Shown here one piece after another: positions 23,675 to 61,347 of a DNA stretch of 64,000 nt; position 1 is the first letter of the stretch, and each line of letters starts with the position of its first letter. Source of the DNA: Flavobacterium sp. (lineage in GTDB: Bacteria; Bacteroidota; Bacteroidia; Flavobacteriales; Flavobacteriaceae). The notes beneath the pieces were generated by a model. It was not told where the DNA came from, did no database searches, and was given only the letters and a program-made list of their open reading frames with translations. A program made the translations under genes and the position numbers. The stretch covers positions 62,001 through 126,000 of the forward strand of contig JACMPO010000063.1 of the NCBI GenBank assembly GCA_014377455.1, read 5' to 3'.

Positions 23675-25993
23675 CTATTTCTCATTACTCTTGGGTTTCA
23701 ATGCTTTTTTCATTCCTTCTATTTGTTTTCTTTCTGATAATTTTAAAGGATATAAATGCGAAATTCCCATTTTATATTGATTTGGAATGTCTTGAGCATG
23801 AAATTGTTCGTATGCTTGAGCATTTCTGACAAAATTTGCATCAAGTAATAAAGGTCTTCCTAAAGCAACAATATCGGCTTTTCCATTCAAAATTATAGTA
23901 TTGATTTGGTCAATATCTTGAATAGAACCTGCCGTTATTGTTGGAATATGAACTGTATTTCGCACAGCATTTGAAAATGGTGTTTGCCACATTCTACCTG
24001 TTTGTGGTTTTTGATGTTCAACAGTATTTCCAGTAGAAACATTTATAACATCGGCACCAGCATTTTTAAAAGCAGTTGTAATAGTAATTACATCACTTTC
24101 TGAAATTCCATTTTCAGCCCAATCGGTTGCTGAAATCCGCACAGACATTGGTTTTTCTTTTGGAAAATTACTTCTCATTTCAGTGAAAACTCGTATTGGA
24201 AATTTTAATCGGTTTTCGATAATGCCACCAAATTCATCTTTTCTAATATTTGTTAAAGGTGATAAGAAAGAGGCTAATAAAAATCCGTGATGTGCTTGCA
24301 ATTCAATCATATCAAAATCAGCTTCATTGGCATTTTTTGTGGCTTGAACAAACTGAGTAGTGACCAAATACATATCTGATTTGGTCATTTCTTTTGGAGT
24401 TAAAGAATTTTCAGAAAATGGAATGGCAGAAGCAGACAATAAATCCCACGGTTTTCCATTAAATTTTTCTTCCCACGGAATTTTTGTTGCTCCTTTTCGA
24501 CCTGAATGACCAAGTTGAATTCCGATTTTAGTATGTGTATTTTTATGTATAAAATTAGTTATTTCTTTCCACTCAATAATCTGATTTTCATTATAAATAC
24601 CTGCACAACCTAAAGTTATACGTCCGTTTTCAGAAATGGCCGTCATTTCGGTTATAATTAATCCTAATCCTCCAATTGCTCGAGAGGTGTAATGTTGAAA
24701 ATGCCAATCATTTACTAAACCATCTAAAGCAGTGTATTGACCCATTGAAGACATTGCAATGCGATTTTGCAACCTTATTTCTCTTAATTTATATGGTGTA
24801 AAAGCGATTGATTGATTGCTATTTATAGATTCATTAAAATCCCTTGACTGCGCTTGGGAAGACAATAAATAAAATTCGTTTAATACCTTGTCTGTAAATG
24901 ATTTATCTCGAAGTTTTAAATTTTCGTAAGTAACTTTTTTAGAACGTGTCATACAGCCAAAGGCAAATTGATAAAATGGATGTTGCATATTTCTATCCAT
25001 ATTTTCAAACCAATCTAACGAAACTAATGCCGCATACTGTATCATCTCAACTGCTGTCCGACGAGATTTATCATATTGATTAAAAGCTTCTTGCACATTA
25101 TTTGGATTTGCAATCACAGCATCTGATAATCCAATTGCCGAATCCATTGCTAATTTTGTCCCAGAACCAATAGAGTAGTGGGCTGTGGCTTTTGCATCTC
25201 CCAGTAATACAATATTTTCATGAAACCATTTCTCATTGGTAACATGAGGGAATTGTCTCCAATGGGATTTATTGGAAATTAAAGGATGTCCGTCTAATTC
25301 CTCTTTAAAAATTTCTGAAATTTTGTTAATTGTATCTTGTTCGTTTGCAACTTGAAATCCTAATTTTTGATAAGTATCCTCGCTACATTCAAAAATCCAA
25401 GTACTTCTGTCTTTTTCATATTGATAACTATGTGCAACCACTGTTCCATGAGGTGTGGATCTGAAAAAATAGGTAAAAGCATCTAATGGTTTTGTAGATC
25501 CAAGCCAAACAAAACGGTTTTTTTTCAATGAAACTTTAGTTCCAAAATAGTCTTGAAACTGAGTTCTAATCTGACTTCCAATTCCATCGCAGGCGACAAT
25601 TATATCGGAATCTCGATACTGATTTAAATCATCAACATTTTGTTCAAAATGCAAATTAACACCTTGCTCTAAACAGCGTTTTTGTAGTAATTGCAGTAAT
25701 TTTTTTCTGGAACAGCCACAAAATCCGTTTCCAGCAATATTTACGGTTTGTCCATCTCTGGCAATAATTATATCATCCCAATATGAAAATTCACTTCGAA
25801 TTAATTCATAAGATTGCATATCTCGTTTTAAAAATTCGCCTAATGTTTCGTCAGAGAATACCACTCCAAAACCAAAACTTTCTCCATCTTTATTTCGCTC
25901 GAAGATGTCTATTTGGCAATTTGGTAAAGCTTTTTTGGTTAATATTGAAAAATATAAACCGCCTGGACCACCACCTATTACTGTTATTTTCAT
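23675..25993 (-). CDS. Bifunctional FAD monooxygenase / old-yellow-enzyme fusion (2-aminobenzoyl-CoA monooxygenase/reductase or salicyloyl-CoA 5-hydroxylase type)
   Basis: N-terminal GGGPGGLYFSILTKK FAD fold with GD motif (VLLGDAKATAHYSIGSG), C-terminal OYE domain (IAMSSMGQYTA..., IGIQLGHSGRKG, FDMIELQAHHGFLLASFLSP). Confidence 0.9.
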   Translation of the reverse strand: MKITVIGGGPGGLYFSILTKKALPNCQIDIFERNKDGESFGFGVVFSDETLGEFLKRDMQSYELIRSEFSYWDDIIIARDGQTVNIAGNGFCGCSRKKLLQLLQKRCLEQGVNLHFEQNVDDLNQYRDSDIIVACDGIGSQIRTQFQDYFGTKVSLKKNRFVWLGSTKPLDAFTYFFRSTPHGTVVAHSYQYEKDRSTWIFECSEDTYQKLGFQVANEQDTINKISEIFKEELDGHPLISNKSHWRQFPHVTNEKWFHENIVLLGDAKATAHYSIGSGTKLAMDSAIGLSDAVIANPNNVQEAFNQYDKSRRTAVEMIQYAALVSLDWFENMDRNMQHPFYQFAFGCMTRSKKVTYENLKLRDKSFTDKVLNEFYLLSSQAQSRDFNESINSNQSIAFTPYKLREIRLQNRIAMSSMGQYTALDGLVNDWHFQHYTSRAIGGLGLIITEMTAISENGRITLGCAGIYNENQIIEWKEITNFIHKNTHTKIGIQLGHSGRKGATKIPWEEKFNGKPWDLLSASAIPFSENSLTPKEMTKSDMYLVTTQFVQATKNANEADFDMIELQAHHGFLLASFLSPLTNIRKDEFGGIIENRLKFPIRVFTEMRSNFPKEKPMSVRISATDWAENGISESDVITITTAFKNAGADVINVSTGNTVEHQKPQTGRMWQTPFSNAVRNTVHIPTITAGSIQDIDQINTIILNGKADIVALGRPLLLDANFVRNAQAYEQFHAQDIPNQYKMGISHLYPLKLSERKQIEGMKKALKPKSNEK
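24840..24862 (-). repeat. In-frame palindromic repeat encoding SSQAQSRD, copy B
   Basis: Coding-strand TCTTCCCAAGCGCAGTCAAGGGA; 20/24 identical to 61021-61044 in an unrelated gene. Confidence 0.75.
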
Positions 25994-60087: not shown

Positions 60088-61347
60088 ATGTCAAAAATAA
60101 TTCCTTTTAAAGCTGTAAGACCTACACCAGATAAAGTTAGTTTAGTAACTTGTCGAAATTATGATGATTATTCGCCAGCAGAGTTAGCATCTTGGTTGGA
60201 TTTTAACCCGTATTCATTTTTGCATGTCATCAATCCAGCTTATATCCATTCTCAAAAAATAACTTTAGACAAGCGATTTAAAGGTGTTTTACACAAATAT
60301 CAGGATTTTAAAACCGAGGGAGTTTTTGTTCAAGAAGATAAACCCATTTTATATTTATATGAAATAAAATCTAAAAATCACTCGTTCATAGGAATTGTAG
60401 CTGGAACTTCTATTGAGAATTATAAAAATAATACAATAAAAAAACACGAAGATACCTTACAATATAGGGTTGAGTATTTCAAAGATTATTTAAATCAAAC
60501 AGGTTTTAATACCGAGCCAGTATTGATAACTTATCCAGATAATCAGGAATTAAATGAATGGATTTTAGATAAAAAAAAAGAGCAAGCTGTTTATAATTTT
60601 TCAACTACAAATAAAGAAAAACACACGCTTTGGACAATTAATAAAGATTCAGAAATCGAGTGGATACAAAATAAGTTTGAACAAATCCACGAACTCTACA
60701 TTGCAGATGGACATCATCGATCAGCATCAGCAGAATTATTATATGATGAAAATTTAAATTCTAAAAATGAGAATCTCAGCTATTTCATGAGTTTTTTAAT
60801 AGCGGAAAGTCAGGTTAAAATTTATGAATTTAACCGTATTATTCGAGATTTAAATGGAAATTCTAAAGAAGAATTTATTGAAAAATTAGCAAAAAATTTC
60901 ATTATAAAAATAAAAAATCAGGAACTCTGGAAACCCGAAAGTAAATTTGAATTTGGAATGTATCTTGACGGAAATTTTTATGCTTTATTTTATAAACAAA
61001 AAAACAATACTTCAATTTTGTCCTCCCGAGCGCAGTCGAAGGATAACATATTAGATAATTTAGATTCACAAATTTTATACAACACCGTTTTGAAAACCAT
61101 TTTGGGAATTCAAGATTTACGAAATGACGAGCGAATTGAATATATTCCAGGTAAACAATCCATTTTGACAATTAAAGAATTAGTCGATGAAGGAGAATTT
61201 GAAGTGGGATTTATGCTTTTCCCATCCGACATTTCAGAAATCAAAGCACTAGCAGATAACAACTTAATAATGCCACCAAAAAGTACCTACATAGAACCCA
61301 AATTTAGAAGTGGATTACTTATTTACGAACTGGCAAATATAATTTAA
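60088..61347 (+). CDS. DUF1015 family protein
   Basis: FKAVRPTPDKVSLVTCRNYDDYS, IADGHHRSASAE; 419 aa. Confidence 0.9.
   Translation: MSKIIPFKAVRPTPDKVSLVTCRNYDDYSPAELASWLDFNPYSFLHVINPAYIHSQKITLDKRFKGVLHKYQDFKTEGVFVQEDKPILYLYEIKSKNHSFIGIVAGTSIENYKNNTIKKHEDTLQYRVEYFKDYLNQTGFNTEPVLITYPDNQELNEWILDKKKEQAVYNFSTTNKEKHTLWTINKDSEIEWIQNKFEQIHELYIADGHHRSASAELLYDENLNSKNENLSYFMSFLIAESQVKIYEFNRIIRDLNGNSKEEFIEKLAKNFIIKIKNQELWKPESKFEFGMYLDGNFYALFYKQKNNTSILSSRAQSKDNILDNLDSQILYNTVLKTILGIQDLRNDERIEYIPGKQSILTIKELVDEGEFEVGFMLFPSDISEIKALADNNLIMPPKSTYIEPKFRSGLLIYELANII
61021..61045 (+). repeat. In-frame palindromic repeat encoding SSRAQSKD, copy A
   Basis: TCCTCCCGAGCGCAGTCGAAGGATA in codon phase with the DUF1015 gene. 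Confidence 0.8.

Follow-up and report, generated by a model that had tools for sequence, protein, structure and literature searches.

RAYT-REP systems (REPtrons, with GTAG REPs and REPINs) combine a single nuclease gene, which is inherited vertically and has flanking hairpins, with many dispersed copies, solo or in inverted pairs, whose type matches that of the enzyme. The enzyme is an HUH/Y1 tyrosine transposase and the tag is GTAG. The CGTC-tagged REPs, including the Rickettsia RPEs, have an unpaired 5' CGTC, often TGTC, next to a short hairpin with a perfect stem of 8-9 bp, whose first pairs are A-T, and a loop of 4-5 nt (PMC3733652). They form mostly head-to-head dimers, have some copies within ORFs, occur in Bacteroidetes and were reported without an associated transposase gene (Di Nocera 2013, PMC3733652).

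The window analysed here, a stretch of 64,000 nucleotides from a Flavobacterium draft genome (3.3 Mb, 94.7% complete, 269 contigs), contains a repeat that resembles both. As in RAYT-REP systems, the family has a nuclease gene embedded in cognate hairpins and matched in type to the dispersed copies; we call this organisation REPtron-like as a working layout, not as a membership. In contrast to those systems, the nuclease is of the GIY-YIG type and the tag is GTCA; neither a flanking Y1/HUH gene nor GT[AG]G at the hairpin foot is found with the element. With the CGTC-tagged REPs it shares the terminal unpaired tag (CGTC, TGTC or CCTC there; TGTC(A) and variants with CGTC(A) here), head-to-head dimers and intragenic copies. 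It differs from them by its 4-bp arm, with mostly G-C or C-G outer pairs instead of an 8-9 bp stem with A-T at the first two positions, by its YGAG...CGAR motif, by an inner part of 5-45 nt and by the linked GIY-YIG nuclease.

A sequence-only reading of the window proposed the family as an undescribed one. This is too broad for REP-like repeats within ORFs, which are already described, TGTC-tagged ones in Bacteroidetes included (PMC3733652); it is the association with a nuclease that we have not found described. A survey of open-access papers on GIY-YIG proteins with REP, REPIN or MITE gave no link between them.

The repeat and its copies inside genes

The repeat interrupts a DUF1015 gene in frame, where it is read LSSRAQSKD, and its GC content is 0.64 against 0.29 for the gene (Table 1). 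The sequence-only reading placed this GC-rich palindrome correctly and without mismatch, but set its start too late: the unit opens with TGTCA, here TGTCC. Three of the four arm pairs are formed and one is a C.A mismatch. TCCTCCCGAGCGCAGTCGAAGGA has no further match in the window at up to three mismatches, with 0 expected from shuffles. A second copy, listed as the first in that reading, is likewise present and in frame, but decayed, its peptide being SSQAQSRD and not SSRAQSKD. TCTTCCCAAGCGCAGTCAAGGGA has four mismatches to the query and is missed by the pattern search by itself; all four pairs of its arms are formed, and it falls in a variable linker of the host ORF.

Table 1. Positions of the two repeat copies and of their host ORFs in the window.
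Feature	Position	Strand	Basis or remark
Solo hairpin repeat, DUF1015 gene	61019-61043	+	pattern search, consensus from copies
Tag TGTCC	61019-61023		part of the solo repeat
Arm TCCC	61024-61027		part of the solo repeat
Core GAGCGCAGTCGA	61028-61039		part of the solo repeat
Arm AGGA	61040-61043		part of the solo repeat
TCCTCCCGAGCGCAGTCGAAGGA	61021-61043	+	window search, 0 mismatches
DUF1015 (PF06245) ORF, 419 aa, host of the insertion	60088-61347	+	PF06245 E=8e-88
Second, decayed copy TGTCT-TCCC-AAGCGCAGTCAA-GGGA	24840-24864	-	in frame, read LSSQAQSRD
TCTTCCCAAGCGCAGTCAAGGGA	24840-24862	-	within the decayed copy
772-aa FAD-monooxygenase / old-yellow-enzyme-type (FAD/OYE-type) fusion ORF	23675-25993	-	function named from sequence, not family scan

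Orthologous proteins with the same residues would have spoken against an insertion, according to the sequence-only reading. Among 29 DUF1015 orthologues from related species of the same order, none carries the repeat; the closest species vary in the length of the surrounding loop, and the remaining ones have a shorter loop.

The genome-wide search suggested by the same reading finds 20 exact GAGCGNAGTCGA cores in the window's genome, and none with the reversed pattern as a control. Congeners hold 121 (G008), 88 (G015), 55 (G030) and 46 (G006), and G004 has 31; across genomes, the reversed pattern gives 0-1 matches each, against up to 121 real cores. From 340 copies in the examined loci, the consensus unit is T-GTCA-NNYY-GAGCGNAGTCGA-RRNN, 25 bp long, with the tag T-GTCA conserved at 85-95% per position. 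The four arm pairs are paired in 94, 94, 94 and 88% of these copies, versus 72, 71, 41 and 40% with right flanks shuffled. The arms covary, with all four Watson-Crick types at two of the pairs and no pairing past the four arm positions; the outer pairs are mostly G-C or C-G. Folding energies of single units in single-stranded form are not significantly below those of shuffles, the energy parameters giving no reward for tandem G.A pairs, and covariation is used as the structural evidence instead. An RNA family identity was rejected, Rfam giving no match in three repeat loci.

Of the close inverted pairs in F. chungbukense (G015), counted from copy coordinates, 20 of 21 have their tags outward, which is the REPIN layout. 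Copy number and position differ strongly between Flavobacterium species, where immobile copies would have counted against the sequence-only reading; its picture of a dispersed, gene-invading imperfect palindrome of Flavobacteriaceae holds. The insert is a REP-like hairpin in solo form, and further copies are dispersed through Flavobacterium genomes, essential genes included.

In the window's genome, in-frame copies occur in the genes for DUF1015, FAD/OYE, LeuRS, AlaRS, BioF, BioD, HemW, KdtA, RfbD (two copies, in two different frames), an E2-type acyltransferase (three copies) and a cyclase-type protein, the hosts being named from recognisable sequence and not from family scans. BioF and BioD each have an in-frame copy in this same genome (G000:C196; L111, L011). 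The peptides encoded are SSRAQSRD, ERSRG and SAVE, and in antisense CAQS, TALGM or STALD. From one recurring peptide, the sequence-only reading deduced selection on frame or a frame-biased insertion. We reject both, since the in-gene copies of this single genome use at least five of the six reading frames and give several peptides. No frame mechanism is needed: host loops tolerate insertions and the core is free of stop codons in all six frames, so that survivorship of multiple-of-three insertions in tolerant loops suffices.

In relatives' LeuRS, BioD, RfbD and other proteins, the insert is absent or the same loop holds a different translated repeat: CHAELDSAS (LeuRS, L192), CHSELVSES (RfbD, L202) or, in the linker of FAD/OYE, CHSERSEES (L210). 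CYAELVSAS is a further translated repeat of these loops (RfbD; L202, L197). Judged by sequence comparison, the loops of LeuRS, RfbD and FAD/OYE are recurrent insertion-tolerant sites across species. The clearest empty site is that of BioD, ISND-KTVIH versus ISNDCHPERCRRTVIH. The net change in length is 7-14 aa in clear cases; AlaRS (4 aa) and the second RfbD copy show smaller changes. No target-site duplication is seen at the in-gene copies compared with orthologues.

A GIY-YIG nuclease gene among the repeats

A small GIY-YIG nuclease gene was first seen inside a cluster of eight copies in a related genome (G007). It encodes a single-domain protein of about 100 aa from the UPF0213/YazA superfamily, matching PF01541 with 70-72 bits (cut-off 22.6). 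The nearest solved structures, UPF0213 proteins 1zg2 and 1ywl, belong to the same fold family by profile (E=1e-20). Residues Y7, Y17, G19, R27 and E65 are invariant in 14 nuclease sequences; we take them to be the catalytic residues. PADLOC gives no match for the nuclease, which we rejected as a defence gene on this ground. At L151, L152 and L154, the C-terminus (GKD..SSTSSD) runs into the downstream repeat, which is the source of its stop region.

We searched 60 relatives for homologues of this nuclease. The 15 GIY-YIG loci nearest to the query lie between hairpins without exception, 13 by a strict scan and two (L157, L161) on separate inspection; in G030 the gene is within an array of more than 20 copies. 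As controls, 27 Y1_Tnp and 27 DUF1015 loci have no element within 600 bp (0/54 together). A set of 80 named Bacteroidota loci was chosen for its resemblance to repeat-flanked genes; a hairpin occurs within 700 bp in 77 of them and on both sides in 58, against 1 of 400 loci in a Markov-shuffled background. The nearest repeats at these 80 loci are oriented tag-outward in a ratio of 47:21 upstream and 51:16 downstream of the nuclease, at median distances of 71 bp and 55 bp, respectively. A draw from the whole phylum Bacteroidota shows hairpins at 13 of 19 scorable GIY-YIG loci. No other gene common to the repeat neighbourhoods was noticed in the clusters inspected. The GIY-YIG nuclease gene is tightly linked to the repeat family.

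Four Flavobacterium species share the gene downstream of the nuclease, and the array nearby ranges from 1 to 22 cores: the nuclease gene is therefore stable and the repeats are dynamic. Short GIY-YIG ORFs also occur in tandem, with a spacing of ~350-358 bp (G023:C1:181321-182972 and G007:C24:34487-36498; L180, L179); these arrays are possibly duplicated nuclease-repeat units.

The type of repeat matches the type of nuclease. Repeats beside different nucleases share the frame GTCA-NNN-Y-GAG-[inner]-CGA-R-NNN, with inner parts that vary between CGNAGT, CTTGT and long AT-rich hairpins; CGTC(A) tag variants adjoin L156 and L158-L160. GAGCTTGTCGA adjoins the nuclease in G002, G005, G026, G028 and G042, and was therefore predicted to be dispersed in these genomes. 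The counts agreed: 20, 20, 23, 24 and 23 copies, respectively, are the top five of 61 genomes. G032 has 17 copies, with a GIY-YIG fragment 135 bp from three of them, and every remaining genome at most 7. On the nuclease tree, built from few columns, repeat type changes 13 times versus 23.5 when shuffled, and 0 of 200 shuffles are as low.

Hairpins of the YGAG...CGAR type frame both sides of GIY-YIG genes in Methylobacterium bullatum, M. aquaticum, Sphingomonas parapaucimobilis and Planktothrix agardhii, Alphaproteobacteria being sampled through plasmid records. The alphaproteobacterial and cyanobacterial tags are CTCA, GTTCA and GTCA. In M. aquaticum there are two hairpins against an appreciable shuffle background (mean 0.33, maximum 3); the two are, however, near-identical and flank the gene. 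On plasmid p1 of P. agardhii (L308:1-4231), the repeat-flanked gene lies between an MmeI-type restriction-modification gene and DISARM drmA. The sampled Bacillus YazA and Cupriavidus homologues have no flanking hairpins; the Bacillus loci (L304, L309) differ also by their conserved operon.

The window's genome has two GIY-YIG genes (on C211 and C193), and no close cognate nuclease of the GAGCGCAGTCGA family is found among the GIY-YIG genes of this draft. TGAGGNACGAAG has just two copies in the 3.3-Mb genome, both within 560 bp of the C211 gene. The C193 gene was rejected as the cognate: it is distant (E=1e-12 to the profile) and not embedded in hairpins, and the copies nearest to it fall inside the adjacent cyclase-type and HemW genes. 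The GAGCGCAGTCGA family may be an orphan in this genome, or its nuclease gene may be lost from the 269-contig draft. Like the window's genome, G006 (46 copies) and G004 (31 copies) contain only distant GIY-YIG relatives; copies therefore persist without the nuclease. Elsewhere in the window's genome (L018:1200-1933, G000:C19), a longer and unrelated palindrome, GTCGCTCTTCGAGACGTTCCGAAGGACAGTCTCGAAG with its relatives, flanks one Y1 transposase gene, as a separate RAYT-type pair.

Proposed mechanism and its alternatives

We consider it likely that the insert is a solo REP-like hairpin and that its family has an autonomous partner in a single-domain GIY-YIG nuclease, whose gene is passed on vertically within a cluster of these hairpins. 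This small nuclease is probably the long-missing partner of the repeat, and its best candidate. By analogy with RAYT-REP systems, it would recognise the hairpin when single-stranded or extruded. The shape recognised would be that of the 4-bp covarying arms, followed by 5'-YGAG...CGAR-3', where tandem sheared G.A pairs could arise, and then by the variable inner hairpin. After nicking near the GTCA tag, presumably by the nuclease, the released unit would reach new places through copying or insertion by host repair, as REPIN-like inverted pairs with outward tags or as solo hairpins. Copies within genes would survive in tolerant loops if they span a multiple of three bases, because the core is free of stops in every frame.

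The element, its covarying structure, its dispersal, the in-gene copies, the linkage and the type matching are observed; binding and cleavage of the hairpin, its mobilisation and the chemistry of insertion are inferred. No GIY-YIG enzyme is known to join DNA strands, and insertion is therefore the weakest step. Homing GIY-YIG endonucleases are comparable as selfish-looking genes linked to the DNA that they would cut; in contrast, there is no intron or intein here, and what spreads is a 25-bp hairpin that occurs at many non-homologous sites.

Linkage is not a proof of mobilisation, since the gene might be regulated by the repeats, or the repeats held in check by the nuclease. The enzyme would then be a host or self-limiting resolvase that cuts or restrains extruded hairpins, nearby repeats would be autoregulatory or hot spots, and mobility would come from elsewhere. 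Three points suit such a role: some members of the GIY-YIG superfamily are structure-specific nucleases, genomes that lack a close cognate still keep repeats, and the gene stays syntenic while the array changes in size. However, the tag-outward orientation, the matching of repeat type by genome and phylogeny and the growth of arrays around the gene resemble a replicator partner, and the inspected clusters offered no other shared gene beside the repeats. We regard restraint as clearly the less likely of the two roles.

Mobilisation by RAYT/IS200-type Y1 transposases, as for classical REPs, with the GIY-YIG neighbourhood being secondary, is improbable. Y1_Tnp genes are present in 35 of the 60 relatives, one Y1 locus of the window's genome (L018) has flanking palindromes, albeit different ones, and TnpAREP subclass 2.6 of Bacteroidetes is reported with 'atypical' flanking structures (PMC6006769). 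Against this, the element lies within 600 bp of none of the 27 Y1 loci, its tag is GTCA and not GT[AG]G, and there is no Y1 (PF01797) match in G030 (55 copies), G004 (31 copies), G031, G011 or G012; the missing linkage and these repeat-rich genomes led us to reject a Y1/RAYT partner for this element. That each in-gene copy is an ordinary small insertion or duplication, or a conserved protein motif, would fit the variable length of host loops in orthologues but has a negligible chance of being right, given that at least nine unrelated genes of one genome hold the identical core, in at least five frames, that the chance expectation is 0 and that the arms covary.

With the GIY-YIG nuclease as partner, we lean towards a wider reading: a widespread class of REPs would owe its spread to single-domain GIY-YIG nucleases and not to tyrosine transposases, as a second, independent kind of REPtron in at least Bacteroidota, Alphaproteobacteria and Cyanobacteria. 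The linkage names a small, concrete and testable enzyme with a matched substrate in each species. If true, this would bring a further class of nuclease into DNA-hairpin mobility and supply the missing enzyme for CGTC/TGTC-type repeats, which would also sprinkle in-frame peptides over essential genes. The linkage likewise accounts for the GC-rich peptides that recur in the essential enzymes of AT-rich Flavobacteriaceae.
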